Source: Halichondria panicea (lineage: Eukaryota; Porifera; Demospongiae; Suberitida; Halichondriidae). From it: a stretch of DNA of 64,000 nt. Where the stretch lies: positions 6,744,315 to 6,808,314 of the forward strand of contig NC_087382.1 of NCBI RefSeq assembly GCF_963675165.1, in the 5' to 3' direction. The notes below the pieces were generated by a model. The model had not been told where the DNA came from and searched no databases. It was given only the letters and a program-made list of their open reading frames with translations. Below, piece after piece: positions 7,896 to 53,621 of the stretch. Made by a program: the position numbers and the translations under genes. How positions within the stretch are numbered: position 1 is the first letter of the stretch; each line of letters opens with the position of its first letter.

Positions 7896-8165
7896 ACTGT
7901 CTACGTGAGGGAAATTCCCAGGGAATTTCCCTATTATTGTTAATTATTTTTAACAAATAAAAGATGGCAACTTGTACAGGACTATTTCATCAGCCCAGTA
8001 CTTACAATCATCAAGAGGAGCCAGGTATATTATAGCTACACTTCTTAACAAACATAATTTAGCAACAGAAATAAGAGCAGCTATCTAGCTAGCCACTCTT
8101 GTTTCAGATGTATGTATCCCGTGCCACTTGTCCTCATAAACACTACCTACAGATAAAGTAGTAAG
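7896..8165 (-). mobile_element. Internal fragment of TIR1
   Basis: Reverse complement of roughly 3330-3605 of TIR1 copy 1: CTACGTGAGGGAAATTCCC, the palindrome GGGAAATTCCCAGGGAATTTCCC split across the join, CAGCCCAGTACTTACAATC, and TCAAGAGGAGCCAGGTATAT. Both terminal inverted repeats are absent, so it is a truncated copy. It directly precedes the CR1-like LINE. Confidence 0.75.
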
Positions 8166-12850: not shown

Positions 12851-13029
12851 AGGAGGAAAGTAGGGTCAACAGAAGCCATACCAAGTCCGATCACCATAGG
12901 TTAGCAATTAAAAATTTGCTTAAAATTTCATGTGAAATTTGTGTTTATATAAATTCAATATCAATCTCAAAAGTGAACATACATTATAATAAATAATAAA
13001 TACAATTACAATTAATTCATTCTATGGTA

Positions 13030-13240
13030 CAAGAGGCCAGGGGATGAGGTACTCCTGGGTATCTTGGATAGTAGTGACAGTGAGTAGGACTTCTCAGACC
13101 CATAAGATGGTGGTGGTACCATGGCAGATAGTAGTGACGATTGTTTCACAGACCTGCATGAGGAAGAAAGAGTATTACCAACCAAGCAGATCAACTCTAG
13201 AATCAATGGTTCTTACACACAAGTAGCACAGAACCTGACA
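13030..13240 (+). pseudogene. piggyBac transposase acidic N-terminal exon remnant
   Basis: The reading GILDSSDSE, then DFSD, then MADSSDDCFTDLHEEE parallels the acidic exon of the piggyBac gene at 40401-40265 (GILDSSEQDLSDSEHTDG, MAEGSDDEFTDLDEEE). One stop and no recognisable downstream transposase. It is probably a left-over exon of a related element. Confidence 0.5.
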
Positions 13241-13372
13241 AACACCAGCCAACAAGCCAGCCATAAAGAATTGAATTTTATATGTAACCTATGTAACCTT
13301 TGGGGTGGTGCCTAAAAGATCAAAAGATTATCAATACACACACTAAATTGAATAATAACATTCAGCCACATA

Positions 13373-13570
13373 CCGTTAGCGCGAAATTTTCGAGGCACTT
13401 ATATTTCGTGGATTGGCCGCACAATGTTCGCGGAATGACTGCTTACCGGAAGCCACGCCTTTAAATATTTGCATGATAGCAGGTAATTTTTCGTAGACTT
13501 AATTTTCGTGTAGAATTCTAACCCACGAAATCCGCGAAAATTAAGCCCCCGAAAATTTCGCACCATACGG
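13373..13570. mobile_element. TA-flanked MITE
   Basis: Ends CCGTTAGCGCGAAATTTTCG and CGAAAATTTCGCACCATACGG are inverted with mismatches and flanked by TA on both sides (13371-13372, 13571-13572). The 198-bp interior is rich in CGAAAATT/AATTTTCG words. TA target use suggests a Tc1/mariner-type MITE. Confidence 0.75.
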
Positions 13571-13876
13571 TAATTATAACAGACAGCACACTAAAAATTG
13601 GGTAGATACATGTAACACAGCACTAACTCACAAGCCAACAAACCTAAAGAAGTATACTGAGAACATGAGAACAGCCATACACAAAGTACAGTACATCTCA
13701 TACAAGGCAAACTTACATGTAATGGCACTGCAATTTTATGATCCTACAACAAACTGGGAGTTCATGCATAACAAGATTCATAACTTGGGCACAGAAGAAT
13801 TACAATGCATATCACAGGCAAACACACAAGCCAACTAATGACAAATTACAGGGGCGTACACAGGGTGGTGCTTAGG

Positions 13877-14130
13877 TATGGAGGGCCGTTCGTGACAAAA
13901 ATGGGTACTACATGTACATGTCGATTTCAAAACGCGAGTAGGAAAGACGCGTTCTCTAACGCGTATAGGGAACACAACACGTTTTGCCTACACACGTCTA
14001 GTAGACGCGTGTTGCCTACACACGTCTAGTAAACACGTATAATTATGCTACACACGTCTAGTAACCGCGTGCTAGGAAACGCGTGTTGCCTACACACGTC
14101 TTATAGCTACGTTGCCTAGTGCCTACACAA
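13877..14130. repeat. Left TIR and subterminal ACGCGT/ACACGTCTAGTA array
   Basis: After the TIR come repeated units such as CTACACACGTCTAGTA and AACGCGT, about six in this copy. The right end (21400-21850) carries matching units in inverted orientation. Such arrays are usual sites for transposase binding, which is an inference here. A small ORF across this array is meaningless. Confidence 0.75.
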
Positions 14131-14260
14131 GTTTAGTTGAAAAACCACATAGAGTTGCATGACCATGTGCTAATCACATGACCATACTTGTATAGTCACG
14201 TGACATTTGTGAGCCATGTGGTATTAATTATTTTTTGGAAACTGATAATAGCTGTTTAGT

Positions 14261-17200
14261 ATGTCTCAAGACACTGATCAAAAGAAAGTTGATGAGGCTG
14301 TTCGGCTTCTAGTGTCCTTGCAAAAGGACAGTGTAGCAGGCCCTTCAAGGTCAAGAACAAATTAACCATCTGGGCACAATGGTGAGTTCAACTACCATTA
14401 CTTTATACATTCTAATTACAGCACCACAAAAAATAATTTTACACTTGTGCTCATTGAAAAAAGAATTAAATATCGAAGTTGGTGCTTCAATTAGAGCGGC
14501 GCATAGTAAAAGAGCAAGTTTGGACACTTTCTACATGGTAGTTTAGTAGAGAAGCTATAGGATCTGTAGGTACAGCTTTATATAATGGCTACTGAAAATT
14601 AAGCAGCGTTACCAGGTTCTTGCATCACCCCTAGCATCACCCCTAAGTTATTTATTCACTGTATTTATGACTGCAATCCATGTATCTTCCTATAATAATT
14701 GTTGCCTCCTCTATTTAAATCATTGTAATTCTAATTAGCTTAGCACCAGAAAATAATAATTCAGAACAGAAAAAGAATTATAATAAAAATTATTATTTCT
14801 AGGTTGGTGCGGTAATACGATAAAACCTCAATTTAAGGCGACACAAAGTAGAGTTTTACGTAAAACTCTACACAAAAAAATTAATTTATATGGTGCTATA
14901 ATTATGGGCAAAATGTTCAAGTGTCGCATATTTAGAGGGTCGCCTTAAATCGAGGTTTTACGTAACCACCCCCACCCTGTACTGTTTCTATAGGTACGTA
15001 GTGAGCAAAAGTAGCTTTTTGACAGATGCTGTAGTTATGTGTTTGATAATTATTTTGTTCACCCCAATAGATAAAGTTGTGTTGGAGCTTCAAGAAAAAG
15101 CTGTCCAGGCGCTGAAGAGTCTGAAGAGTCTCAAGAGTGTTAAGGAAGAGCAGCGCTTCAACTTCTCACCTTATATGAAAGATAGCAGGAAACGCTCGGC
15201 TCTGTGTGGAAGTTCTAGCACCCCCAAAAAGCCCAAGAAGAGTGTGAGCTGGACACATATATTTTTTTGTCTTGCGAAATGTGACCAAGCCAAAGTTCCT
15301 GGAACCATGTGGGAACGCGAACAGCTTCTAGATGCTGGGTTAGGCGAGCAAAAATTGACCTTCAATGATTTGGAATGCACTGCAGAAGAGTACAAAAAAG
15401 TGCTAGTTCGCCATTTTCCGAAACTTAGTGATTCGGGCGGATATGAGTTGATGCGTTGCTGTCCCAACAGTCGCAATCTGGAATGTATTTCCTCAACTGA
15501 TTTGAAATCACCTCAATCTACACAAGAACGCGTTGGCAGATCAAAGGTTTATGTTCGCCCTATTCAAAGAGATCTCGATGTGACACCACTTGAGAATGAA
15601 GAAAGTCTAGAAAGCAAGGTGAGAAAAGTCAGTATTGTCTTTGTAACTTTTCAATTTGGGTATAGGTACTGGAGAAATGCCTAACTTGTGGCAAATGTGT
15701 TAACTTGTCTAACCTGAGACAACATGTGGCTGGATGCAAGGGAAGCCCGTGAGTTTAATTATTTTTATTGTCTTTGAGCAAAGCGAGTCCGTACCTAGTC
15801 TTCACGTTGCAATTCTGTCTGTATGTATATATGTCATGGACCGGCACGATAATTTAGTTCAGACTACTCGGTTATTTGTTGTTTTATAGCTGTGCGCCCA
15901 GTTCTTTTGGCATAATGAGTTGGAATCATAGATCTATAACAATTCGCGCACGCTCGCCCATCACAATGCTGTATATTCTCTTAGTAATACTTATTCTGGT
16001 TCAGGATTGTTTATGGTGGCGGGGATGGCCCACTGTCAGTACATTCATCTGGAAGGTACATGTATTTGTTACCCAAAATACATCTTCAGTTGATGGTCTG
16101 CACATTCACTGTTTTGTGTTTGCTATTAATTTTGTCCTCAGTGAAACTGAAAGTGAAGGAGGATTGCCATACGTATTCATACGTATTCATACCAGGACTG
16201 AAAGGGAAAAATCCAAGGTTAATGTGTTATATTTTGACTCGTCAGTAATTTAAAATGTAACTTCCATGTAGGGACGGCGAAGGTCAAAGTACATCTGGAT
16301 ACCAGTAAGTTGTGACTGTATTATAGCTGTGAACCCATTCTCTAACTATGAATGATGCATTTACACTATACTATGCAATTGTAGAAACTACCTTTCTTTG
16401 TTGGACGAGCCATCAAGCGATCTTTCGGAAGATGATGCTGACCTGCAAGCAGCAATTTCTGCAAGCCTACAACATAAAACGACATTGACGTTACCTGATG
16501 AGTAAGTGCATTTATAATAATAAAAATATACCCTATGTTGAATTCTGGTAGGCTTGTTGCTGAGAGTATTGAAAAGATTTTGAAGGATCACTCTACCAAA
16601 CACATTTCAAGTGACCTGTCATCTCAAATAACTGTAAGAAGAACGCACATTTGGGAAGACTCCCTGAGATTATTTCGCCGGATTGATGCTAGCAAAACGC
16701 TAAGAGTTACCTTTCTAGGAGAAGCAGGAGTGGATGATGGAGGGCCACGTCGAGAGTACCTCAGGCTGAGGCTGTTGATGTCAGCGATCAACAATCAGGG
16801 TCATTTGTTAACTGGTCCACCTTCTAGCAAAGTACCACTACACAATACCCTAGCATTGAGTAACGGTTGCTTCTACAAAATCGGTGTCTTCATTGTGCTG
16901 TCACTTTCGCAAGGAGGGCCTGGGCCTACATTTTTCTCATCTTGCGTTGTAGACTATCTGTTTGGAGGAACAGCAGCTGTTAAAGCATGCATTGATGACA
17001 TCCCAGACAAGGAGGTTTGTGAGAAGTTGCATAAGGTAATATTTTTGTCATTAATAAAATAGTTTTAAAACATGTTAAACCCATGCAGCTTGAGAGTGCT
17101 TCTACCAACGAAGAGTTGCAAGATCTTCTTAATAGCGAGCAATTTTCTTTCCGCTTTGATTGCGGAGTGTGTCAGCCGGCATCCTCCATTAACATCAACG

Positions 17201-17866
17201 ACAAGCAACACCTTGTTTCAAGCATTGCACTACACTACTGCATCTATGCATGTAAAGCTGAACTGGATGAAATCAGACGTGGCTTAGTCTCCCTTGGGTT
17301 TGTAGGCCTGATGACCCAGTATCCGTGCTTGATGTCTCTCTTTAAAGCCAGTTCACAAAAGCTCACAAAAGCTTACAGCTGATATTTTGCAGAATATGTT
17401 TTCACATACATTTAGCCTCGCTGGCTCAAATTCCCGTGCCAAAGAGCAACAAATTATGATGCATATTCTGGAGCTACTGCATGATGTCGAAGGTATGTAT
17501 GGTATAATAATTATGGTACGGGTTTTTGTATTATACATGCATAGCAATAATTAAGAATTTTATGCATGCGTGCATGCAGATGGGAAGTGAGAAGTCGATG
17601 TTTTGGACGATGGTAATCGTGAGATTATTCCAATTTCCTTGGAGGATATCCTCGTTTTTGCGACTGGTGCAGCAAGTGTTCCTCCTATGGGGTTTTCAGA
17701 ACGGCCTCGCATTGTTTTTAAAGAAGACAGTGCAAGTGATCTTCCAACTGCCAGCACATGCTCTAACACATTGTATGTTCCTACAGTGCACCACAATAGT
17801 TACGATAAGTTTAAATACAAATTTGTTTTTGGTGTTACTGGTGCTGTTGGCTTTGGAACAGTGTAA
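14261..17866 (+). pseudogene. HECT-type E3 ubiquitin ligase gene (G2E3-like), multi-exon, in transposon
   Basis: Proposed exons: 14261-14381; 15071-15618; 15666-15748; one or two uncertain exons in 15890-16225; 16272-16303; 16385-16501; 16552-17035; 17089-17492; 17580-17866, all with GT/AG borders. Domains in order: a small zinc-finger-like motif CLTCGKCVNLSNLRQHVAGC; a ubiquitin-interacting motif DDADLQAAISASLQ (about 16431-16472); HECT N-lobe with TLRVTFLGEAGVDDGGPRRE; C-lobe with LPTASTCSNTLYVP, whose Cys codon (17759-17761) aligns with the thioester Cys of HECT ligases. Lesions: exon 1 frame problem, a 10-bp duplication near 17353-17372, TGA early in the last exon. Resembles the G2/M-phase E3 ligase-like genes abundant in sponges and fish. 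Confidence 0.85.
14818..14962. mobile_element. TA-flanked MITE in HECT intron 1
   Basis: CGATAAAACCTCAATTTAAG at the left is mirrored by CTTAAATCGAGGTTTTACG at the right, with TA on each side (14816-14817, 14963-14964). Near its left end is the palindrome AGTTTTACGTAAAACT. 145 bp, no ORF. It is contained in the first intron of the HECT gene. Confidence 0.75.
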
Positions 17867-19052
17867 ACTGATAATCGAATCGAACTGAGAATCAAATTGA
17901 ACTGAGAATATGAAGTTGATCCCGCAAGAACATAATTATATAACTATTAGAAGTTGTGATGCGGACGTAATCATTTATTTGTTTTAATTATTGGCTTTTA
18001 TAACTATTGCCTTTAAGTATTATTATTCTGATGCTAATTTTAATGATGCTTGGGTCAAATTAAAGTACTGCTTGCTAATAATAGGCATGGACTATGTAGA
18101 TATAATAATAATTATTGTGAAATGATACAAATTAAATCCCTAATAAAAAATTATACATAATAATAACTGTGCATGCAATGGAGACTGACCGCATAAGCCA
18201 TAACAATCCATAACTAAATAATTTACATGTAAGAGAATGTATTCACAAACGCACGAACAAGTACATATTTTTGATCAATGTTGCTCATAATTATGTATAC
18301 TGTGTCTGGAGAAATTTCTCTTTGTAAGACTTCGTACAAACATTGAGGTAAATGATTATTGACCGCTGTTACTGTAACTTGATCCACTGACTGGGAAGTA
18401 GGTGCAGGCCCAGTCCAGTCTACACCATACCACTGCAATTCTTCCTATAGAAAATGCTTGTAGTAATATACTGCAATCTGATTGGTCACTGAGAGGTCCA
18501 TTATTTCACTTATAGACCTGTCACTGTCAGAGGTCTTCTAATTAGGTCTATTACTGATTAGCCTACAGGCTATGGAGGGTGATTAGTGCCAAAATGTTTG
18601 AATGGATACCCAAATAATGTGAATCCCAAATGTAATTTCTTAGTACCCTGAAAATCAAATTTGTTGGTGCAAAGTTTAAAGTGTAAAGTTACTTGTGCTT
18701 TATTAAGAATACTTTGTGGATACTGAATGGTGCATACTGAATGGTGCATAGAGAATTAAAAGGTCTTGCCCCCATGCATGCAGACTACATCAATTTGTTC
18801 AGTGATTGTCTTATCATGCATGTTCAATGCACATGTTACATATTTTGTCCATGGAGCACTGCAGCCACAAGTTATCTGTACACTCTCTGCAGTTGGGCAA
18901 CGTGGCTATCTACATGTACCTCCAAAAAATCAATACTTCTGCCATCTCTATAAACACATAGCTAAGTCACTGACGACTCTTTCAGTGCATGCATGCATGG
19001 CGTAGGATGGCAGGGCTCTAGTTTTTTGAATGCAAAAAAAGTACGCTTACAT
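17867..19052. other. Intergenic part of the 8-kb transposon
   Basis: AT-rich spacer downstream of the HECT gene. A short + strand reading at 18741 (VHRELKGLAPMHADYI) resembles the 3' part of a LINE RT protein but is too short to assign. Nothing else is supported. Confidence 0.35.
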
Positions 19053-19667
19053 CAGGGGCGTAGCTACCATTGTTTCCTGGTTGCCCAGAAACCCCCCCAG
19101 GAGCTGCTGAGAAAATTGGGCAGGGCTCCCCAATAATTGAAAATCAAGCAGCCCTGCCCATCTTTTCATGCACGTGGCTGCAAATCATGTAGAGATAGCA
19201 CCGTGAATCGTTTCACTTTGGCTAGCTTTGTCTCAGCTGGCTAGCTAGCTACCTCAAACAAAGAAGACCAAGACTTAAGTTCTAGTATCAATCCTGCATG
19301 CTCCAGTATTCTCAGACTCAGCTCTAAGCACAACTTTATTCGATATTCAGGAAGGACAAGTTTAGAACAATCTCAGCCACATGAAACCTCTCAGGTAAAT
19401 GTAATGGTGCTCAGCTAGACTAACAATACACAATTGACACCTGCCTTTTAGAATGTCTATAGCTAGCTAGACTAGCTAGTCTAGCTAGCTTATCACAAAC
19501 ATGTAAAAAAAGTCATTACAAACAATTAGCAGTAGGTGTAACCAGTAGGTGTGCCCCAATCAAGAGGGTGTGGTACCGGAAGTGGGCGTGGCTAAAATTT
19601 CCCGGCGCTACTGCGCCGCTGGTTTTTCAAAGGAAACCCCTATGTCAAAAGTCTGGCTACGCCCCTG
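19053..19667. mobile_element. hAT-type MITE with CAGGGGCGTAGC ends
   Basis: CAGGGGCGTAGCTA at 19053 and TGGCTACGCCCCTG ending at 19667 are inverted. This terminal sequence is a widely seen hAT end. TACAT flanks both sides, which may be part of an 8-bp duplication. A 615-bp non-coding element nested in the 8-kb transposon downstream of the integrase gene. Confidence 0.75.
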
Positions 19668-19948
19668 TACATCTACATATAGTGCAGCTTGATGATCTCT
19701 ACTTAATAGCGTATAAAGAGATGGGGAGGCTCCAGCCCCCCCCATTCCTACGCCACTGTCTTTGTAAAAAGAATTGATGCACCATCCATGAAGTATTCTT
19801 ATTCTTATCAATTAAAGCATAAATGCTTTACACTTCCAATTTTGCACCGCTGATTTGATTTTTAACTTAAAATAATTATTTGGGTACATACTTAGAAATT
19901 ACATTCGGGTATTGGCAAAATTATTTAGGTGCCTCGGGCCTTTGGGTC

Positions 19949-21228
19949 TCAAACCCACCTTGGACTCAGCATATAACTATAGAAGTATAGATGTATAAGC
20001 ATACTCACTTGGTTTATAGGGTCCATCAAACTTTGTATAACAGCCTGTTCTGCAGTGGTACACATTCCTAAAACCCATAATTGATGTGGTGTCTTGTTTC
20101 GTTCAGTGCTAAGAGGATGATGTTTCCAAGAGTTACTAAATTCGTACATCTGCCGATTCAGTAAGGGTATGGCACAATAATGTAGGGAAAACAGTAGGGA
20201 AAACAGGTCATTGTCAATATTGAGTAGCCCTGCATTTTCCAGTTCACAGAATAAAGTATAGAAAGATGCTATGCACCCCAGAATGTTTCAATCCTTTGAT
20301 TGTGGACGCTTCTGCCAGTAATCATGCTTCCTCTTCCTGGTCCTCTACATGGATGATTGAGCATATACTCTGAAATGCCAACATTTTCACCACCCTTGTC
20401 ACTTCTCACCCTTGATGGCAATCCATATGTATCGACACCCTCAAGAAAAGACGATAACACTGTTGTGGCTCTGTTGTTGTTGGCAGCTTTTAGGTATACA
20501 ATAAGTCTTGAATACCTGTCGATTCCTCCATGGATAACAATCTTCCAGTTTATTAGTTTATGATATCCATCAACATGCCATAGACTGTTCGGGCCTATCA
20601 CTGAATATTGGCGCCGATGTAAGGTTTTCCGAAGCCTATTCGCTACTCCAGTGGGATCCACACGAATAAGGCTGTCCCTTGCTCTTTGTCTTGGTATCCG
20701 AATATGAAGTGATCGTAAGTGGCCAATAAGAATTCTGTAACCACTCATTGGATGGCACTGAACAAACTCTGACACAATAACATCTAGGTCGATATCACTA
20801 ACAATAGAATGAAGAGAATTTGCTAATCCAAATTCTTGAATACGTCTATAAATAGTTCGTGGTGAGCACTGTAGCATCTTTGAAATATCCTGTACAGAAA
20901 AATGGCTATTCAACAGCTGTATAAGCTGATCTTCAGTTATTACCATCTTAGGCCTACCTCTACGGCTATCTCTGTCTCGGTTTCTAGCCAGCACCCTCTC
21001 AAGCCAACTTTCCAACTGTTCAATAATGTCAGACAAATGAGCAATGACGATTCTCACGGCTTGTGCCAACCTTGAGGCACCATTTAACAAAATAACCCCT
21101 TCCAGCAATACACAGTATGTTGTTAGCGACTCACAAGCTATCAGTAAACCCTCTAGCACATCTTCTTCTTGGAAATTAGCAACATAAAACTGATGCAAAA
21201 TGAAATGTCTTCTAAAATGGCAACACAT
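19949..21228 (-). pseudogene. IS3/rve-type integrase (transposase) gene
   Basis: Order from 21228 downward: a helical N-terminal region; a basic linker [11 protein letters not shown]; a helix-turn-helix [19 protein letters not shown]; then an rve/DDE core with [11 protein letters not shown] (first D), [11 protein letters not shown] (second D) and [10 protein letters not shown] (E). The uninterrupted frame stops at 20269 just after FWGA. The family's next helices continue in a shifted frame ([36 protein letters not shown]) to 19990, pointing to a small deletion. A donor-like CAAGTGAGTATG lies after MDPINQ. A 12-bp in-frame duplication is at 20182-20205. It would cut and join the transposon ends; near-intact but probably inactive. 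Confidence 0.85.
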
Positions 21229-21399
21229 AGGTCAATATGTTGAGAGTTTCTGCTTCTGCCATGTTTTCTATGTACCTCTATAATTAATTATGCCACTGTA
21301 AATACTTAGTGGAAACCACGCCCCTTTCTTTGGGAAATAGGACTGTAAGAAAGGGGTGTGGTTTCCGTTTGTGGTTTCCGTTTATGTACAACCTCTAGA

Positions 21400-21850
21400 C
21401 GCGTGTAGCCTATATAGCCTATACGTGTTTAGAAAACGCGTGTAGCCTATACGTAACGCGTGTAGCCTATACGTAACGCGTGTAGCCTATACGTGTTTAG
21501 AAAACGCGTGTAGCCTATACGTGTTTAGAAAACGCGTGTAGCCTATACGTGTTTAGAAAACGCGTGTAGGCAAAAGTAGCTAGACGTGCGTAGGCAACAC
21601 GTGTTTCCTATATAGACGTGTTCTCTGAACGTGTTTTCCCTACTCGCGTTCCCTATACGCGTTCTCGTGTCTTCCCTACTCGCGTTCCCTATACGCGTTC
21701 TCTGAACGTGTCTTCCCTACTCGCGTTCCCTATACGCGTCTTCCCTACTCGCGTTCCCTATACGCGTTCTCTGAACGTGTCTTCCCTACTTGCGTTTTGA
21801 AATCAACATGTACATGTAGTACCCATTTTTGTCACAAATGGCCCTCCATA
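21400..21850. repeat. Right TIR and subterminal ACGCGT-type array
   Basis: About eight units built on GCGTGTAGCCTATACGTGTTTAGAAAAC are followed by units built on CCCTACTCGCGTTCCCTATACGCG, then the TIR. The array is longer and more regular than the left one, consistent with local amplification. ORFs across it have no meaning. Confidence 0.75.
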
Positions 21851-21856
21851 CTTAGG

Positions 21857-22980
21857 GTGCTCCAGCACCCCCATCCAGGCTCTGGTGCTCTAGCACCCTA
21901 TCCAGACTCAGAGAAGCTCAGGTAGATAGTTCAACCATCACTGGCTGGCTAGAAGGAAGCTACACTTACTGCAGCTATCTACAGCTTAATAGTGATAGTT
22001 ACAATAAGTGAAATCCAGCTAGCTAGCCTAAAAAACTTACTTTTCTTCCATCCTTTAATACTGGGATATCCAATAAAGAGTGGGGAGGGGCTCAATAATA
22101 AGGCTAGGTAGCAGGAAGTGGTTTGCTGTATCAAACATGCCTCACAACATGCAGCACAACAAGGTTCTTGGATCCAGGTACATGAGGTACATGAATGTAT
22201 AGTATAATTATATAATTAAGCCTACATGTATGTACAATAAATTATAATAATAATCAATGTTTGCAATGTAAACTACAAAGTCTCTTTTCCTCAACATCAA
22301 GGTACGTACTGGTGGTCATACTTTGTACGCTGCCTGTCACCTCCTGGTAAGCTGATCAATCTTTTAGTGGCCTGAAAAGAAAAGAATCAAGACTGTCGTC
22401 AGATCAAGCAAAGGAACGAACAAAGGAACAAACGTTTATCATCACTTAATAACTTCTACATTTACACAGAGACTAGACATGACATGATTGCATTGACATT
22501 TGACATACCTTAAGAAGAGTGCCATCCCAGGCGAATTGAGCTTCTGGTCGTAAACATTCTTGACTTGCTGATGGCACTGTCAGTACTGTGGCTGTGCACC
22601 ATCTAGAAAACAGTGGGCGTTGCCGACAAAACGGGCGTGGTCTAAATTTTGCGGCGCGCAATGAGCACCCCCATTGACTGAATCCCCCTGAATTATGACC
22701 TAATCCTAGCATAACACAATTTGGGAAGAAAATGTCCTTACACAAGTAAACAGTACACTCATAAGCCCAACAAGCCTTTGCTTTCCCCTGAAAAGGTCAA
22801 AACATTTTTATGCAATCAACCTCTGTACATGTACTGTACATGTACACAGTGAGTGAGCCTAATGTAATTGAGTAGTAGCCTAATTGAATTGTAACCTTGG
22901 AAGCAAGCAGAAACTTCACACAAGCCTAGGCATAAGAATTAACTGTAAATTGTTAGCAGTATAAAGTATCATGCCACAGG
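21857..22980. other. Non-coding stretch with possible minus-strand exons
   Basis: It begins with the right half of the hAT-like MITE that the 8-kb element hit (GTGCTCCAGCACCCCC). On the minus strand two short readings have splice-like borders: about 22620-22510 (ending GGCACTCTTCTTAAG|GTATGT) and 22372-22313 (CAG|GCCACTAAAAG to CCACCA|GTACGT). They read WDGTLLK and ATKRLISLPGGDRQRTKYDHQ in the same phase. They could be exons of a host or TE gene. No family is recognised. Confidence 0.3.
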
Positions 22981-24062
22981 CTAGCCTCGATCCCAGGCCG
23001 AGTTTTCGCTTTTATAACGGTTAGGCGAACAACTGGGCCTGGTACTAGTTGTCTGCGCATGCGTCAAATTTTCATTGTATATTTGTGGTCGGCAAAAATA
23101 TTTAATAAATCAATAATGGAAATTTGTACACAGAAAATGCAGAGTGAGTACACAAAAGATGCACATAGGGAGCTGCTTCACAAAGGCCTGGGGAGTTGCC
23201 AGTTGTGCTGCAGCACAATTACAGTGACCCAGTGACCCAGGGCAACTTCAGGATGATTGAATGCCTTCAAATTACGTTTCAAAAAGATTTAGCAGGCTGC
23301 TGGACTTCTCTGATTCTAGGCCCCAACTCGTAACTCATTGCTTGAGAAAACGTAGATTCTCTTGATGTCTCTGAGCTACCCAGCAACGCTCGAATGAGCA
23401 GGTCATACTGTGAGTATAGGACAATATTAAAAGAAACCAAAGACGGTTAAACCCTTACCTCAAACTGTCCAGTCTCGTCCGTTAGTATAGCCAAGAGGAG
23501 CACTGTTGGGATAGCTGGATATTAGCCATTGCTCCTGTACAGAGAAGTAGACATTTTAAATACGTGTAGATCTATACATATTAAATTTCTCGGTTATAGT
23601 GTCATTGTCGACGAGCTGATGATGGCAGCACCAAGTTCTCTAGCTCACACTCTTCACTTAATCCACCATATTAATGATGAAACTATAGTCTACCTACATT
23701 CTTGCCAAACATGAACAAGACTTGATAGCATAGCCGGCCATAGGGCCCACACAAAAATATCTGACCTTAACAAGCTTGACAAAGCTTTATACCTCTTCCC
23801 TTGTTGTTCAGTCTTCAGAATAAGCTTCAGAGAAGAGAGAAGCTTCAGCTAAGAGCCATTCCAATCGATTCCAATAATGATAAAACGGGAACTGACTTCT
23901 AGTACACGATAGTACACGAATATAAATGTCACGAAAGTGAACGAGAATATCCATTCGTCAGAATCTGACGAACGACTGACGCATGCGCAGACAACTAGTA
24001 CCAGGCCCAGTTGTTCGCCTAACCGTTATAAAAGCGAAAACTCGGCCTGGGATCGAGGCTAG
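22981..24062. mobile_element. TIR element with 86-bp perfect inverted ends and 7-bp TSD
   Basis: The first 86 bp, starting CTAGCCTCGATCCCAGGCCG and ending TGCGCATGCGTCA, are repeated in inverted orientation at the right end without mismatch. CCACAGG flanks both sides (22974-22980, 24063-24069). The TIR itself contains the inverted words CCAGGCC/GGGCCTGG. Perfect TIRs imply recent movement or conversion. A related end fragment is at 6641-6690. No transposase; possible captured exons are listed separately. A 7-bp duplication does not fit a common superfamily neatly. Confidence 0.85.
23285..23535 (-). CDS. Putative two-exon coding fragment inside the TIR element
   Basis: On the minus strand, TGTACAG|GAGCAATGG begins an exon that ends GGACAGTTTGAG|GTAAGG. 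After a ~50-bp intron ending CTCACAG, a second exon reads YDLLIRALLGSSETSRESTF then SQAMSYELGPRIREVQ. One frame joins across as AIPTVLLLAILTDETGQFE|YDLL. No family is recognised. Borders and intron size fit this genome. Could be gene capture by the element or chance. Confidence 0.35.
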
Positions 24063-25674: not shown

Positions 25675-26652
25675 TGCCGATTCCATACTCGTTGGACCTT
25701 CGTTGGAGAGTAATTTGGCTCTATCTTGCTCATCACTCATCACTTGAATTGTAAAGACATATCACACCAAGTCAGCCTTTCTGAGAGCACTGTCTATAGA
25801 TATATTAATGCTTTTGAGCAAACTGGTGATGTAGCGCCAAGAGTTTCAACACATGGTCCTCAGAAACTACTCGGAGATTTTGAACAGCTTGTACTTCTAC
25901 GAATCATTTTGGAGAACACTGGCATATACTTACATGAAATTCAAGCAAAACTTGTTACAATGTTTGGCGTTACTGTAAGTGTTGCAACCATCTGTCGAAC
26001 ACTGAAGTTCATGAACTGTACACGGCAAGTTATTCAACACATTCATATACGGCGTAATGATGAATTACGTGCTAAGTTTATGGCTGAAGTTACAACCTAT
26101 GATCCAAGAATGCTCATATGGCTAGATGAGACAGGGTGTGATAGAAGAAATTGTGTACGAAAATGGGCATACAGTATAAGAGGTATGACGCCCAGAGACC
26201 ATAGGCTGCTAGCACGTGGAACACGCTACTCAGCAATTCCTGTACTGTCCCTTGATGGAATACATGATGTATGCTTCTTTGAAGGGACTGTGGATGGTGG
26301 AAGGTTTGAGCAGTTTTTGAGAGATTGTGTTCTTCCAATTCTAAATCCATTCAATTGGGTAAATCCCCATTCAGTTGTGATTATGGACAATGCCTCCATA
26401 CACCATGTGGAGGGTGTTATGGATTTAATTGAAAACCACCAAGAAGGAGCACGACTGCTTTTTCTCCCTCCATACTCACCTGATTTGAATCCTTGCGAAG
26501 AGGTTTTCAGTCAAGTGAAATCAATTATGAAGCAAAATGATGGAGTATTTCAATCATGCAGTGCCTCAAGAGTACTCTTAAGTATGGCATTTAGTATGGT
26601 AACCAAACAAGACTGCCTTTCTTATATCTCTCATAGTGGATACATTGACTAA
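25675..26652 (+). CDS. Tc1/mariner-superfamily transposase
   Basis: The protein reads MPIPYSLDLRWRVIWLYLAH then, from 25726 on, an uninterrupted frame: helix-turn-helix (DISHQVSLSESTVYRYINAF), then LIWLDETGCDR (first D), VVIMDNASIHH (second D) and YSPDLNPCEEVF (E). There are 36 residues between second D and first E of CEE, so DD36E type. A 7-bp duplication (TCATCAC twice, about 25728-25742) shifts the frame between the start codon and the body; otherwise the gene looks whole. Cuts at TA and moves its own TIRs. Confidence 0.9.
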
Positions 26653-34969: not shown

Positions 34970-35746
34970 AGCTATGAGCACAGAGAATCACCCTTTACTC
35001 GATACAGCAAGTTTATTAACGCCGCACTAATGAAATGGAAAAATCGTGATAAAAAATGTGACTATTTACAGACATTTACAACTGATAATTGGAAAAAGCT
35101 ACCAGCGCACCAAAAAAAGAAGCATACAATGGGTAACTAACTGCAAAGCATGTGCTTTACAATATAGCATTCAGCAACAACACTTTCCAGGACGTACATT
35201 CAGTCTCACAACAAAAGTAGCAGAAAGTGTGAAACAAATTATACAGGGCAACTCTAGCCTACAGAATCCAGCAGTCATTACTACAAGGCAAATTTTAGAA
35301 GAAATTGAGCCACAATTCAAAAAAGCATACCAATCAACGAAAGAACCTGGTACCAAAGTGCAAATAAAACCCACAGCCAATGAAAAAAAGAAATTCAAGA
35401 GAAAAATGCAACGCAACTGCAGAGACGCCATGAATGAACAATTTCTAAATGCCGACCCACTCCAGGTTCTTTCAGAAGGGCAATCACTACAAGGCATATA
35501 AAAGGATGAGATTGTCACAGTCGTTCGAGAAACCAAGTGGCCCGAACAAGAATCCTAACCGCAAACATTCTCCCAACTTTAATAATGTGGAATGGGACAA
35601 AGACAATTTATACAAGAAATTGAGTGAATGGCCTATAGGGGAACCGATCAACTGGACACAAACCGCTGATGAGTTTCACATTAACCGAATAGCCGCGGTT
35701 ATGATTTCATACGTAGTACCGCCCACCGCGGAACCACTTTTTAAAG

Positions 35747-37041
35747 TTGGCTCGAACCACCCCAGGCATTGCTAACCTCCTTAAGCCACTAGAAGAAACA
35801 ATAAGGACAGTCTTTTTGCCAAAATTGACTGGACAGAATGCCTTTGGTGATCTGGAAAGACAGATATTGGCACTCCCAGCCCGCCATGGGGGACTTGGTA
35901 TAGCAAACCCGTGTGAAACAAGCCCTGGTCAGTTCACGATGAGCATGTCAATCTCAGCACCACTAGTCAGCCTGATACTTGACCAATCCGATATATACGA
36001 ACCTACAATGAAGCAAGAGCAAGCCAGACTGAGGAACAATGCCAAAAAATTCCGCCGACAGATGGAAGCCAGGACAGCAAGTGAGCTAAATGAAGATCTA
36101 CCAAACAAGTTGAAAAAAATGGTTGGAATATGCTCAGAGAAAGGTACCTCAAGCTGGATAACAGCGCTGCCTATTGCAGAGCATGGTTTCATGCTACAGA
36201 TGCTCTTTGCCTCAGGTACGGCGGCTGGCGTCCTCAGAACCTACCCTCTCACTGTGTCTGTGGACTTCACTTCACAGTAGAGCATGCACTCAGCTGCTCT
36301 AGGGGAGGATTTCCAACAATACGACATAATGAAATACGCAACATCACAGCAAATCTTATGAGCGAAGTATGTCCAGATGTGGGTATTGAACCAACCTTAC
36401 AGCCTGTGACGGAAGAGCAGTTCCAACTTAGGACAACCAACCGCGAGGATGGGGCTCGCCTTGATGTTGTGGCCCAGAGCTTCTGGAGCAACGATAGACA
36501 GAGTGCATTTTTTGATGTCAGGGTCTTCAACCCGTACGCACCTACCTATCGCCGCTCCACCATGGCCCAGAGCTACAGAAGAAACGAGATGGAGAAGAAG
36601 AGAGCTTATGAACAGCGTGTAAGAGAAGTCGAACATGGATCGTTTACGCCTTTGGTTTTCTCTGCTGCTGGAGGTATGGGTCCGGCTGCAGATATTGTCT
36701 ACAAGAAACTAGCTTCAATGCTGGCAGAGAAACAGGACAAAACATACAGCACAACTCTGAATTGGATGAGGTGTAGGCTAAATTTCTCCCTCATAAGATC
36801 AGAGATTATGTGCATCAGAGGCTCTAGGAAGTCTTTCACCACCACCACACCATGGAAGGCCTTAGACACTGGCACTATTGATCTAGCAACTCAAGAAGGC
36901 CGGGTGCTATCGGTCTGAAACATGTGTTTTCACCCAGGAACTTTATAAAATTATGTCACATGTTTTTGTTGTTTTTTCTTGGTTTGTTTTTTTATTTTGT
37001 CTTTTGTCTTTTGTCTTCTCTTATAATAAAAAAAAAAAAAA
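35747..37041 (+). mobile_element. 5'-truncated LINE with CCHC/REL-type endonuclease end and poly(A)
   Basis: Two frames give the 3' part of an RT protein: LPARHGGLGIANP, then SHCVCGLHFTVEHALSC (CxC-x7-H-x3-C), PTIRHNEIRNITANLM, EDGARLDVVAQSFW and SAFFDVRVFNP. The Cys/His finger followed by RHN and spaced D residues resembles the restriction-like endonuclease end of R2-type LINEs. The tail VEHGSFTPLVFSAAGGMG is shared by many sponge and coral TE proteins. TGA at 36916, then T-rich 3' UTR and about 14 A at 37028-37041. Inserted in the piggyBac element: CCGCGGAACC on its left and AGCTGCGTAGC on its right are adjacent in the related repeat at 24.9 kb. AAAGTT may be the target duplication. Confidence 0.75.
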
Positions 37042-37587: not shown

Positions 37588-40401
37588 CTAGAGTTCATGT
37601 TGTTGTGACTGCCATGTCATAAAGCGGTCTGTAGAACTGTCTCCTGTGTGGCAGAACCATTTCTGGCATGCCTGGCAAAACCACAGGGAGTCTTTTCTTG
37701 CTTTTATAGATTTGCATAGATGACAGCGCCCTCTACATCCTTCCTGGTGATGCAGGGGGAAGGGTAGCGTCTTCGTTGTAGTATGTGTCCCCACTCCTCT
37801 CTTTCTAGACGCATAGCTTCCGATCAGCTCCTCTGCCAGCCGAAGGCGAAAAGAGAGGCTTGTCTTGCTCTTGTTTGAGGGTGAGGAGTATCTTGAGTGT
37901 AGTATGTAGCTATTGGTTACACATATATCCATCAGAAATGAATAGATGTACATGTAAAATTTGTGAAATTTTGTAGGGCATCGATAGTACCCCCTCATCT
38001 GGTCTCCTCTATCAACGCCACCCATCAATCAACGCCACCCATCAACCGATTGTAGTCTTCAATGCACTGAGGGCATGGTACAGCGATCTTCTCTCCTGTT
38101 CTGCATCGCCGATTTACAGTGGAGCTGGCAGTGGGGTCAGAGGCCGTGGACATTACACGGACAATCCTATTGTCCTTCCAGGCTGTCACTGTGACCGTGT
38201 CCTTCTGCCTCATCAAATAATCTCCTCTGAAAAAGGTAAGCTAAAGTAATAGAATTACTGTAATAATCATTTATAATTATACCTGTCAGGCAGGCTTGGA
38301 TCCTTAAGATCTACAGGGAAACCAACACGGTCGCTGCGAGTTGTTCCACAAGCATAGATCCCATCCTTTTCCAGGAGGTTTAGTGAAGTGAAATAGTTGT
38401 CAAAGTACACATGGTGGTATTTTCCCTTCAGCGAAGTAGTGAGGTCTTTGACAACTCGGGTGCCTAGATGTTTTTCTGGTGTACTCTGCCTTCCAGTGTA
38501 GACTTGCATGGTGTGAAAGTAGCCATTCTTGCCATTCTTGCTATCAGCTAACACCCATACCTTTATTCCCCTCTTCACAGGCTTGTTGGGGAGGTACTGC
38601 TTGAGTGACGATCTTCCCTGGAACTTAATCATCGCCTCATCAACAGCCACGTCCCGGTCTAACAAGTACACTGCCGAACAGCGCTCATTGACTTTGTTGA
38701 TGAGGGGACGTACTTTTGCCAAGCGATCACTACCAGGGGTGCCGGGAGTTGGGAGCGTTGTGTTGTCAGCAGAATGGAGGTAGCGACGAATATCTCTGAA
38801 CCGATCCCTTGAGATCTTGGATGCGATAGGTGAGTAGTGGAGAAGGGTGTCTTTCTTCCAATAATCCTCTATTGATGGGAGCGTAACTACGCCCATCAAT
38901 ATGCAAAAACCTATATAGGCCTTGAGCTCTTCGAGTGTCAAAGGGATCCACTTTTCATGCTGTAATGGGGTCATACTTTGGTCTGCGTACTTATTTGTTT
39001 CAGTAACGATGTACTCCAACATCTCAGGTGTGAACAGTAGATGGAAGGTCTCCAGTGGAGAATCTGAAATGATCACAGTCGGGCCAACAGATTGAGTGAA
39101 CAATTGCCGTGGATGGTCACGAATGGTGGGAGTCCATTTACTGGAGGAACCAGGAGTGGCACTGCTTTGGGTAAGTGTGTGTGTGTGTGTGTGTGTGTGT
39201 GATGCTACAACAAAGTGCCCTTTTACACTGTATGCCAAGGCTTGTATTTGCAATTTCTGTTTGCTACATTGTAAGATATTATAATTATGTGCCTAGGCAG
39301 TGTTTTTACTGAAGGGTTGGCACCATAGGAGAAATTCAATTCTGTATAATTATGACTGGCTTGTGTCATTCTGTGCCCAATGTCATTTTTTTAATTGTGC
39401 TTTGCTTGTAAGGTGTATTTAGGTACAGGCATAATTACTACATGTACTTTGAGTGGCTGTAAAGAGAGTAGGTTATTGATTGCATGATAAAAGGTGACCA
39501 AAATGTGCAGTTGCTGACAAATGTGCAGTTGCTTTCCCAAGACAAAATTAATATTCCTGTTGATAAACTTCTGTACACTCATAATTCACAATTCTAGGTG
39601 TTTCTGTTTCTTGCTCCAGCCTTATGTATTTGCTTTGTCCAAATAGTAATTGAGATTGCATGATAGTGTTTGTGACCTTTTTATTCAATATGTATGTGCT
39701 GTACCTGACAGGCCTATAGGCTTGTGGGGGTGTGAGGTGTTTGTTCCTTAGGCACTCCTGCCTATAAAGTAAGGTTGGTTTGTGTATGTACTGTTTTGCT
39801 ATGTATGGTCACTTGTTCCCAATGATATCATTTTCAATAGTGTTGGCTTTACCTTGTAGAATTAGTTCTGTTCATGACTCTGCCTCTGCCTCTGCCTCTC
39901 CTGCCTCTGTGCAAGTAAAGTTATAATTGTAATTATTAGCTGTATATAATTATTATTAGTACATAATTATTATTAGTACATTCTCTAAAAGTAACTCCAT
40001 TGTTGTCTACTTGGTGTTACCTTGTGGTCGGACGTTTAGGGTGAGTGGGGGGGGGGTGGTTCTAGGTCAGGTGGTGAGATGGGGGGTTCTAAGTCAGGTG
40101 GTGAGAAATTGAAGTCTATGGGTGAGAGGGTTATTTCTGATGATGGGAGGGTTGTTTCTGGTGACTGTCTTGGAGTGTCACTGTGCCTGTGCAAATTTAA
40201 ATCTTTGAAACTACTTTATGCTGATTATAAATTTTTACATACTCGAATGGGATGTCTGGTTGTGTAGGGTACTCTTGTTCCTCCTCATCCAGGTCTGTGA
40301 ACTCATCGTCACTCCCTTCTGCCATGGGGCCATCATCGTCTTCGAGGCCATCAGTGTGTTCTGAGTCAGAGAGGTCCTGCTCACTACTGTCAAGGATACC
40401 C
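37588..40401 (-). CDS. piggyBac (PGBD-type) transposase gene
   Basis: Exons on minus: acidic exon about 40401-40265 (after a TTTAG acceptor; DLSDSEHTDGLEDDDG, MAEGSDDEFTDLDEEE); core about 39170-38283; intron 38282-38227 (56 bp, GT/AG, restores PDR|GDYLMRQKD); final exon 38226-37588. The core has the DDE_Tnp_1_7 pattern: DRDVAVDEAMIKFQGR (first D), HHVYFDNYFTSLNLL (second D), and YNRLMGGVDRGDQ-type end motif (third D). The C-terminus has a zinc-binding CxxC/CH set (RCHLCKSIK, FCQACQKWFCHTG). A 17-bp tandem duplication at about 38013-38046 shifts the frame within the GGVD region; apart from this the gene appears intact. Confidence 0.88.
39172..39204. repeat. (GT)n microsatellite at the piggyBac exon border
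   Basis: About 14 GT units just upstream (in gene sense) of the core exon. The apparent N-terminal poly-HT of the long minus ORF is intronic microsatellite, which argues that translation of this exon starts by splicing and not at the upstream ATG. Confidence 0.8.
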
Positions 40402-50818: not shown

Positions 50819-53621
50819 TTAATGACCTACACCATACTTGTGTTGGACCACCAAACCAGACTTTGCATACATGAGGGTCATGAAAAAATGAAAAGTAACT
50901 CGTGCGATCCAGTGAGATTGACTACTATTATTCAAATTATCGTGAACATTGACTCGACAAAAATTATCTATTCTCGCAAGATAGAGCTCATTAGGAAAGT
51001 CAGGATGAATAGCCATTACATGGGACTTAGTAATATGCCGACTCAAAGCTGATCCAAGCACAAACCCCCCAACAATTACTGCAGATGCTTTTTGGTATAA
51101 TAAAAGCAGTGTGTAATCCTCGTGACCAATAAACAAAGTTAAAAGGGATGCCAGTTCTTCCTTGTCCGTCGATTGCCAGGCACTTTCTGATACTGGGGGA
51201 ATAACATTTAAGTCATTGGTACTAAAGTCATTTAGAGCCTGTGTTAAAGAATGAGCTTTGAGTGATCCTTCTTCAAAGAAATGTCTATCAAGTAGTGGAG
51301 CAAATTGACGCTTGAAGTCTGGTGGCCAATGAGCAACTGAAACACGCTGGCAAGACATATATCGTCTCATAATCTGTAAAGATATATCGTGACTATTTGT
51401 ATGAAATGATCCTAAGATTCCGTTCATCCTTTCGTAGCTGAAAAGCCAAAATGAGTAAACAGGACCAAAATCTAAAATGCACTCTTTCAGATGAGCATGT
51501 AAGTGCAGGTTGATGGTGTACTGTTCTTTGCCATAAAGGGATTCAAATACCTCACAGAAATCCATTAGTAGAGCGTCACCTCTTTCAACCTCTGTAATTG
51601 TTACTTGTCTTTGGCACAGAATAGAAACAGCCTTAACAAATAATAACCAGCAATCATAATCCCTGTGAGGAAGAATTCCCTTGAGAGAACACAGAGAATA
51701 AATCAATGTCCAATTACGCCACTGTTCGGCAGTAAAACCAGAGAAGCCAGATGCAATTTTCGAGGGTATACGCCCAACATCAGAAGGTGCTGTGAATGAG
51801 TCAACAGTCTGTTGAATGATCAGAAAGTGTGCCTTGCTAACTAGTTCCTTTGACACCCAAACATTCAGCATGTGCTTGGCAGTCCCAAGCAATAAATTGT
51901 GCATTGGATCCACTACTGTGTATTTGATGACGTCAAAGTATGGTAATACGAGCAGAACTGAGTATCTACATCCATATTCCCTTTCGATCGCTTTTTGTTC
52001 TGCTTTTGTTCTTGCTTCTCTGTGGATAGTAGCAAAATGTTTGTGTGTGTCTAGAGAGCGACAAGGCCAAGTTTCACGGTCAGTTCCTGTATAGTCCGCC
52101 TTTTCTCCAAAGTGTTGTGTTGGAAACATTTTTAAGCATCGTGAGCACGCACGAAGAGCATTATGTCCCACAAAACCTGATACCTTTCTGCTCGCAGGTA
52201 TATCGCATGTTACACAGATTAAAGCCGCTCTTACAAATATATTCATACCAGAACAATTTTTCATAACAATTCCGTTCCAAAGCTCCAGGAGTTCATTTGC
52301 AAAGGGTTTAAGATAGGTATTGCAATCTTTTTTGGGTTCATGTGGTCCAGGCATAACTCCAAGAAGTATAACATTTTCATTTAAGTACCTCTCACGTCGA
52401 GGTAAATTTTGTATTCCGACATATATAGCTCCGAGAGAGTAATTGCTATACTTGAAGGGCTGGAACCAATCAACATTTAGAGCTAGAGCAAAATTGTATG
52501 GTGCAGACAAAAAAGGTATTCCACCAGGGCAAAGAAACTCGTTCCAAACTCTTCCATCATATACATCACGCAATGTTGATGTTTGGACACGTCTCTTTCT
52601 CCAAAGCTCAGTTTTCTCGAAGAATCCAGGTGTCATTAGCTTACTTCTAAGCACCTCTATAATACTTTGGTAACAAAACATCTGTCTAGGATATAGGGAC
52701 GTGGAACCACTTGATGTTTTAATGGTCTTCATTAATTGAGCGTTACAAGGTAGCCTTTGGCGACTATGCGGATGATTAGGAAATGCAACGTGTGAACAAT
52801 GTAGACTTGAAACAGTTTTATCTGGATTCACAATCTTGCACAAGTGTAACGAATACAAGGAGTGACATTGAGGGCAGCTCACATTCTTCAGGAACGGATC
52901 GCCCACTTCTCCAATAAGCTTTTTAGCAGCTGAAGTACTCTTAGGTACCATATCAATGAATTCCTGAATACCTTCAATGTTTACTGGCGCAAGAACCAAA
53001 GAGAGTATCATAGACAAATACAAAAACAAAACAGTCATCCCTGAGTCGGACAGCTTGAACATCGATTGCCACAATAGTAAAAACATGACATAAAAGCGGA
53101 CCGTTTTTTTCGTTCGCGATTCAAAGGTAGTAGTCTGAGACACAGAATCATCAACATCATCCGTATCGAACCATACTTCAGTTACTGAATTTTCTATTTC
53201 CTAGAGGAGTTATTAAAAATGTATTATTGATACAAGTCGATGGCTAGCTTACATTTTATCAGTCTGCTCATCTGCTGAGTCAACATCGTTGTGCTCATAA
53301 TTATCATCAGGATATTCATCGTTTTCTAGATAGATTGATGGAATGTGTATAAAATACAGTACATCTGTAGCACATACACCAGCAAGAGTATAAAACATTC
53401 CATGCCAGCCAATACATATACGTACATAATGTTGGCACTACTTACAGACGCTTACCAGATTCATCACTAGGGAAATAAAATTCATCTGTGTCAGCCTCCT
53501 GATCCTGTGCCACTTTCTGCCATGTGTTTGTAGAAGGAGTGTAGTATTTCTTCTTGTGTTGGTAGTACAGTGTTTTCCCAATTTTTAGGTTGCAATGGAA
53601 GCAGTGAAATCTCTTCTCCAT
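50819..53621 (-). CDS. CACTA/Tnp2-type transposase gene (gene B), apparently intact
   Basis: Exons on minus: 53621-53456 (MEKRFHCFHCNLKIGK, a CxxC finger, FYFPSDES); 53325-53253 (acidic); 53200-50819. The last exon is one uninterrupted frame of over 770 codons, the longest in the window. It has a zinc-like CPQCHSLYSLHLC, FALALNVDWFQPFKYSNYSL, LGVMPGPHEPKKDCNTYLKP, ARKVSGF-type VSGFVGHNALRACSRCLKMF, and YFDVIKYTVVDPMHNLLLGT, landmarks of Tnp2/Transposase_21-like proteins of the CACTA superfamily. An extra in-phase tail (VAYCEHEVDFGSRIGKQIVL, about 50690-50800) in another frame suggests a short last exon or frameshift. Confidence 0.82.

Follow-up and report, generated by a model that had tools for sequence, protein, structure and literature searches.

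Among eukaryotic DNA transposons, the IS3EU elements are the closest described relatives of the sequence reported here. As set out in the portions of the two source papers available to us, these elements begin and end with TA and usually duplicate 6 bp of target (PMC10045372), and they are recognized by TAYGG..CCRTA termini, terminal inverted repeats (TIRs) of more than 30 bp and a 6-bp target-site duplication (PMC12730594). Fungal IS3EU families additionally bear a TET/JBP gene, thought to counter DNA methylation, and an alpha-kinase gene (PMC12730594, accessible portion). Links between transposons and the ubiquitin system have also been described. Specifically, Ginger1 transposases carry OTU or Ulp1 domains, for which ubiquitin/SUMO steps in transposition or repair were proposed in the part of that report at hand (PMC2836005), and the available text of a review of giant transposons notes ubiquitination-linked domains in Burro retrotransposons, with mention of neither HECT nor IS3EU (PMC6431247). 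HECT is likewise not mentioned in the accessible text of PMC4255032, and in the open-licence literature, as far as its texts were available, we found no report of a HECT gene in an IS3EU or other TIR-bearing DNA transposon. Here we describe such a gene in the sponge Halichondria panicea. The window analysed is a 64-kb stretch on contig C6 of the 131-Mb genome, and the element occupies window positions 13877–21850; element coordinates below are window positions. Its anatomy and the regular recurrence of its gene pair make it very probable that the window element is the decayed copy of an IS3EU-type DNA transposon with two genes, one for a transposase and one for a HECT ubiquitin ligase.

Results

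Boundaries of the window element

The interval 13877–21850 is flanked by a perfect 6-bp duplication, CTTAGG, at 13871–13876 and 21851–21856. Immediately inside it are the TIRs, at 13877–13954 (+ strand, first bases TATGGAGGGCC) and 21773–21850 (− strand). The inverted arms, taken as 13873–13954 and 21773–21854, comprise 82 nt and are 91% complementary, four bases of the duplication being counted within them. The 11-mer TATGGAGGGCC is found at 13877–13887 (+) and 21840–21850 (−), its sole two exact matches in the 64 kb, and allowing up to one mismatch yields 5 matches against 0.55 expected. The termini of the window element read TATGG..CCATA; the TAYGG..CCRTA termini, the 6-bp duplication and the 82-nt TIR, well over 30 bp, thus all agree with the IS3EU definition. 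Moreover, a scan of 13001–23000 for TAYGG..CCRTA ends separated by 2.5 kb or more that had 13 of 20 terminal bases paired and a 6-bp duplication with at most one mismatch returned a single pair, namely the 13877/21850 ends.

Between these ends lie the HECT gene (+ strand, approximately 14261–17866) and the transposase gene (− strand, approximately 18223–21204 or further), arranged tail to tail. The interval 13877–21850 is therefore one transposon of IS3EU type that encloses both genes. A prior reading of the DNA by a model that saw only the letters and their open reading frames (the sequence-only reading) had called this a near-complete 8-kb transposon with TIRs and a perfect CTTAGG duplication. 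The ends bear this out, with 82-nt arms, 91% complementarity and a unique end pair; 'near-complete' fits the ends and not the coding capacity, because both the HECT and the transposase reading frames look broken. A search of the window against Rfam gave zero matches.

Recurrence of the gene pair in the genome

Seven copies were read: the window element and the fetched loci L067–L071 and L073. Four further copies could be bounded. L068 (3950 bp, duplication CTTTTT), L069 (5810 bp, CGGGTC) and L071 (7210 bp, ACAGCC) have exact 6-bp duplications and TATGG ends, and L070 has an exact 6-bp duplication, CTGGTA, with deviating ends that read TATGAGG. HECT and transposase frames are present inside each of the four. 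The element ends of L067 and L073 were not delimited in boundary scans; both loci hold a transposase and a HECT C-lobe, that of L073 recognized by eye.

With respect to the genome as a whole, where all match counts are lower bounds, 129 of 208 candidate stretches were scored for the transposase and gave at least 136 matches, which merged into 96 loci. HECT queries, consisting of pieces from several families together with the Pfam HECT profile, gave 121 merged loci that presumably include host HECT genes. A convergent HECT match was present within 8 kb at 69 of the 96 transposase loci, with 6 further loci having HECT on the same strand, 1 in divergent orientation and 20 none. The convergent gap has a median of 920 bases and is below 3 kb in 65 of the 69 cases. 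For transposase loci spanning at least 540 bases (n = 75), the corresponding figures are 60 convergent, 5 on the same strand and 10 with none. Viewed from the other gene, 79 of 121 HECT loci are near a transposase, as are 35 of 48 matches to the N-terminal domain (window-type and L070-type pieces). Random placement within contigs (1000 draws, the sizes of C4 and C9 being guesses) produced 2.2 pairs on average and never more than 8. A first count, for which only the window N-lobe exon and Pfam HECT served as queries, paired 41 of the 96 transposase loci and 40 of 72 HECT loci; the rise from 41 to the larger set came about because the added queries were taken from the elements themselves.

The idea that transposase loci without a match in the first HECT searches truly lack the gene was set aside: in L073, which represents one such family, a divergent C-lobe can be recognized by eye at the usual convergent position, and this C-lobe piece as a query has 34 genome matches. 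Of the six same-strand loci, four look like one family (C4:2653241, C4:3498264, C7:4193336 and C15:5970420), with HECT approximately 3.2 kb away. At least four IS3EU transposase loci also lie inside approximately 130 kb around and beyond the window (C6:6764598-6891779).

Given the convergent pairing and the bounded copies that contain both genes, HECT regularly accompanies the transposase as second gene of this IS3EU lineage in the sponge and is not chance cargo. The proposal that the ligase is a transposon gene is supported, with HECT within 8 kb at 76 of 96 transposase loci (69 of them convergent) and in the four further bounded copies. The sequence-only reading would have been refuted had other copies of the TIR/integrase element never contained the HECT gene. 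At the level of the lineage this refutation fails, as just described; taken literally, for the exact end sequence, the result goes against the reading. The remaining hits of that sequence are two miniature inverted-repeat transposable elements (MITEs) with exact 6-bp duplications and no room for genes, one of 706 bp (C8:4419560-4420265, L004 1502-2207; duplication GAAAAG) and one of 668 bp (C13:2167297-2167964, L005 1505-2172; duplication AGTAGC).

Conservation of the HECT gene

In the nine C-lobes chosen for alignment, an S-T-C triplet is invariant (9 of 9), at a mean column identity of 34%. Pairwise identity across six families (window, L067–L071) is 29–46% for the C-lobe and 42–62% for the transposase core; among the five bounded copies, C-lobe identity is 29–45%. 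C-lobe frames are open in many near-identical copies. Moreover, when exons were joined by hand, Pfam HECT matched L070 with 51.7 bits over profile positions 2–304 of 306 and L071 with 51.3 bits over 12–305. The pairing of HECT and transposase is old, and most of the copies of the lineage that we found in this genome have retained it. For this reason the ligase probably serves the element as a functional component; selection on HECT is likely.

Genes of the window copy

The HECT gene on the + strand may begin with a weak exon identified by eye at 14261–14362 (MSQDTDQKKVDEAVRLL..); short leading open reading frames (ORFs) were seen by eye at a similar place in L067, L069 and L071. The next exon, 15070–15618, encodes an N-terminal domain whose predicted fold (approximately residues 58–167 of the piece) looks ubiquitin-like, and which has 33 genome matches. 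It is followed at 15666–15748 by an exon for a C2HC zinc finger (CLTCGKCVNLSNLRQHVAGC), which scores 23.4 bits with zf_C2HC_14, below the Pfam cut-off of 25, and is therefore recognized at motif level; zinc-finger pieces of four relatives likewise fall under Pfam cut-offs. A tandem repeat of a 10-base unit at 16168–16192 lies within an exon and is associated with an apparent frameshift. The exon at 16385–16502 contains a motif resembling a ubiquitin-interacting motif (UIM), DDADLQAAISASLQ, at 16431–16472; its 18.0 bits are below the Pfam cut-off of 21, so that it too stands at motif level only, and Pfam UIM gave zero hits for the similar motifs of L069/P0001, P0002 and L071 (P numbers denote database proteins discussed below).

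The HECT domain itself is spread over three exons. The first part of the N-lobe is encoded at 16553–17035 (24 genome matches; zero Pfam hits for this exon alone), and the remainder at 17087–17491, where a short duplication near 17355–17376 shifts the frame. An in-frame TGA stop (17588–17590) directly precedes the last exon, 17591–17866, which encodes the C-lobe with the conserved Cys (codon 17759–17761) and scores 40.4 bits with Pfam HECT against a cut-off of 23.9. The spliced HECT gene with its Cys kept, as proposed from the letters alone, is thus substantiated. Of the three domains then named, HECT passes its profile cut-off, and the UIM and the C2HC finger both remain below theirs.

On the − strand, the transposase core at 20282–21204 comprises a helix-turn-helix-like region and the DDE domain, and its ORF matches Pfam rva_4 (integrase core) with 158.4 bits (cut-off 26). 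Pfam rve gives 24.9 bits on the window transposase, under its cut-off of 32.6, and exceeds the cut-off in L070. The residues taken as catalytic are D (20569–20571), D (20398–20400) and E (20287–20289), all invariant among five aligned transposases. Beyond the catalytic Glu, the coding stretch continues in a shifted frame at 20011–20287, and it is followed by an intron of approximately 1.6 kb (18445–20010), enlarged by a nested inverted-repeat sequence (approximately 18571–19950), and by the last exon at 18223–18444. The window transposase gene is probably spliced, with its last exon beyond this repeat-bearing intron. The claim of a convergent integrase-type transposase accordingly stands on rva_4, with rve below its cut-off. 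The left part of the nested sequence begins TATGGAGGGTGATTAGTGCC and resembles an IS3EU end; a 6-bp duplication was sought around 18571–19950 and none was found.

Inside the ends of the element are subterminal repeats. Those on the left (13976–14140, +) consist of CCTACACACGTCTAGTA units and are inverted relative to those of the right end, where tandem repeats with periods of 13, 20, 28 and 41 nt span 21396–21796 (+).

Domain content varies between families. By tblastn, the window N-domain piece matches L067, L069 and L071, and the window zinc finger matches L069, with similar fingers seen by eye in L067 and L071. L070 has a different N-terminal piece, which has 15 genome matches. The UIM-like pattern, chosen after the motif had been seen, arose in 0.8% of regions upon base shuffling. 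The ligase of the window and several related families appears to have a ubiquitin-like N-domain, a C2HC finger and a UIM-like motif, and other families differ.

Related proteins and the name G2E3

Protein searches, in each of which 7998–8000 candidates were scored, gave 2, 3 and 9 hits. P0003, which NCBI names 'G2/M phase-specific E3 ubiquitin-protein ligase-like [Halichondria panicea]' and which stands in a 30-member cluster, matches the L070 HECT with 97% identity across 55% of the query. This annotation in H. panicea is a transposon gene, and the suggestion that 'G2E3-like' predictions in sponges and fish could be transposon genes is upheld to the extent of this one protein of this sponge, through its match to a bounded copy. 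The L069 query aligned over 51% of its length with a second H. panicea protein, P0001, at 86% identity, and over 57% with P0002 of the sponge Dysidea avara at 40%; judged by eye, P0002 shows a similar series of parts, from an N-terminal domain like that of the element through a finger and a UIM-like motif to the beginning of a HECT N-lobe. A clownfish protein, P0004, known here as protein sequence only, covers HECT profile positions 21–304 of 306 and aligns with 57% of the L070 query at 27% identity. The distant relative P0008, from an ENA contig, represents 109 sequences in a 90% cluster, a number that may reflect either a gene in many copies or a large number of assemblies.

A profile built from P0003 together with five relatives gives a match to Rsp5 in which the element Cys is aligned to the Rsp5 Cys that we take to be catalytic; P0003 alone reaches a best score of 29.5 bits against PDB sequences. 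An AlphaFold model of the relative P0006 (6 sequences) has pLDDT (predicted local distance difference test) values below 50 at residues 237–360 and was not used. Stretches resembling SUMO-interacting motifs were seen by eye, for example VIDVDE in P0001.

G2E3 has N-terminal fingers of the PHD/RING type. In the hand-joined sequences of L070 and L071 and in P0003, which is itself incomplete, Pfam detected neither a PHD nor a RING finger, and orthology of the element HECT with G2E3 was rejected on this ground.

In prokaryotic and viral collections, a transposase alignment drew 40 stretches from IMG/VR, none of which was confirmed, and 51 from GTDB, which contained one relative, L072. This 4.2-kb contig from a Cycloclasticus symbiont bin of a poecilosclerid sponge carries an IS3EU-like transposase at 1317–2036 (50% identity in the best segment) followed by a retrotransposon-like ORF, with no HECT match on the contig; it is probably host sponge DNA within a bacterial bin.

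Discussion

Two explanations would place the HECT gene in or near the element without making it part of it. One is that a HECT element or host gene merely sits beside an IS3EU copy through two adjacent insertions. The window does hold other mobile-looking ORFs by eye (a Tc1/mariner-like ORF at 25714–26652, a reverse transcriptase at 35717–36918, a piggyBac-like ORF at 38267–39292 and a 793-amino-acid transposase-like ORF at 50819–53200), but in each of five elements, which lie at different places and have different 6-bp duplications, both genes sit within a single end pair flanked by a single duplication, and the layout is repeated at 69 of 96 loci. We rejected adjacent insertions, which the five bounded copies contradict and to which we give practically no chance. 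The other is that these genes belong to the host, either as G2E3 orthologues or as a HECT family that the transposon prefers as a neighbour. The NCBI name given to one of them speaks for this idea; nonetheless, the absence of Pfam PHD/RING matches from the L070, L071 and partial P0003 sequences, the location of HECT inside the ends of the element and its near-identical copies at many places render it extremely unlikely.

A further alternative is that a host HECT gene was captured once by an ancestor and has since been carried as a passenger without function for the element. Consistent with this, the window HECT is broken, some copies show no HECT match and the MITEs lack it, L068 has a HECT gene for which no N-domain exon was apparent, and ratios of nonsynonymous to synonymous substitution (dN/dS) are indecisive. 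However, C-lobes that are only 29–46% identical across six families keep S-T-C in all nine chosen cases, with open frames in many copies, and a neutral passenger that old should by now have changed almost beyond recognition. We regard passenger status as very unlikely.

Several observations nevertheless weigh against a ligase that is a conserved working part of a regular gene pair. In terms of pairing, no HECT match lies inside 8 kb of 20 of the 96 transposase loci, two of the six same-strand loci adjoin a HECT locus already paired with another copy, the enlarged HECT set leans to this lineage through queries drawn from its own elements, and the two MITEs of approximately 0.7 kb share the ends of the window element and have neither gene. 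As for conservation, weaker C-lobe hits read NTC, RTC, QTC, QAC or LTC in place of the triplet, L056 is without a Cys there, and C-lobes are shortened in some copies (L031, L033). Between-family dN/dS is 0.26–0.72 for the reported pairs (dS < 2.5), where dS has reached saturation, and copies that are nearly identical differ at too few sites for such an estimate; a Mantel comparison of transposase and C-lobe distances (7 families) gave r = 0.39 and p = 0.13, so that co-descent was not shown. In the window copy, two short duplications and an in-frame stop appear to break the HECT frame, and the frame of the transposase core is exited just past the catalytic Glu. Finally, the accessory parts are unevenly distributed: the window N-domain piece has no tblastn match in L068 or L070, the UIM-like motif is present in three of the five families scanned (window, L069 and L071) and absent from L067 and L070, and Pfam HECT gives zero hits in P0001 and P0002, both of which end within HECT.

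With respect to mechanism, the DDE transposase would cut and paste the element, and the convergent gene would supply a HECT ubiquitin ligase. The ligase could be made together with the transposase and ubiquitylate a host protein by which the element is silenced or restricted. This role ranks first, tentatively and by analogy; host regulation is favoured because of the published parallels, namely the TET/JBP and alpha-kinase genes of fungal IS3EU and the OTU/Ulp1 domains of Ginger1. The element protein would then be an active ligase whose ubiquitin-like and ubiquitin-binding parts may select or stabilize substrates, the ubiquitin-binding parts favouring those already modified. Alternatively, the ligase may act on the transposase or the transposase–DNA complex, limiting copy number or clearing the complex for repair. 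The compact, convergent two-gene layout would suit such a role, as would the Ginger1 precedent, where ubiquitin/SUMO steps in transposition or repair were put forward in the accessible part of the report (PMC2836005). However, a ligase encoded by a gene of its own, and equipped with ubiquitin-like and ubiquitin-binding parts, would fit an external substrate just as well; we rank this role second and consider it somewhat doubtful.

Extending action on host factors beyond this sponge, an IS3EU lineage spread across animals might have HECT as its core second gene and use it against host silencing, through ubiquitylation of modified chromatin or of restriction factors, with the multi-copy 'G2E3-like' HECT proteins of sponges, fish and others being its genes. 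We think this broader proposal, which is drawn by analogy, unlikely. Transposons with enzymes of host regulation show how genome parasites deal with their hosts, and the present element offers a system for asking what a transposon gains from a ubiquitin ligase of its own. Mobile-element genes may also inflate the size of the HECT family, and the number of 'G2E3-like' annotations, in the genomes of animals.

Compared with the known HECT E3 ligases matched among PDB sequences (such as Rsp5/NEDD4, AREL1, HUWE1 and E6AP), the sponge proteins share the HECT domain and a Cys aligned to that of Rsp5, whereas the similarity is weak and they have N-terminal parts of their own. With IS3EU and GingerRoot elements, as described in the available portions of PMC10045372 and PMC12730594, the sponge element shares TATGG..CCATA ends, long inverted repeats, a 6-bp duplication and an integrase-type DDE transposase; HECT and ubiquitin appear nowhere in the main text of these papers, whereas the sponge element has a HECT gene. 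Transposon genes for ubiquitin/SUMO removal (OTU, Ulp1) and DNA demethylation (TET/JBP) are already in print; a regular, divergent ubiquitin ligase as second gene was not found in the open-licence literature searched, to the extent that its text was accessible. The fungal TET/JBP IS3EU families are similar in having accessory enzyme genes, with an alpha-kinase gene opposite in orientation to the transposase, but there one accessory enzyme acts on DNA methylation, whereas the second gene of the sponge element encodes a ubiquitin ligase and the host is an animal (PMC12730594, accessible portion). Ginger1, as far as its description was available (PMC2836005), shares a transposon enzyme tied to the ubiquitin/SUMO system; its fused OTU and Ulp1 proteases remove ubiquitin or SUMO, whereas the sponge ligase is a separate gene whose product would attach ubiquitin.

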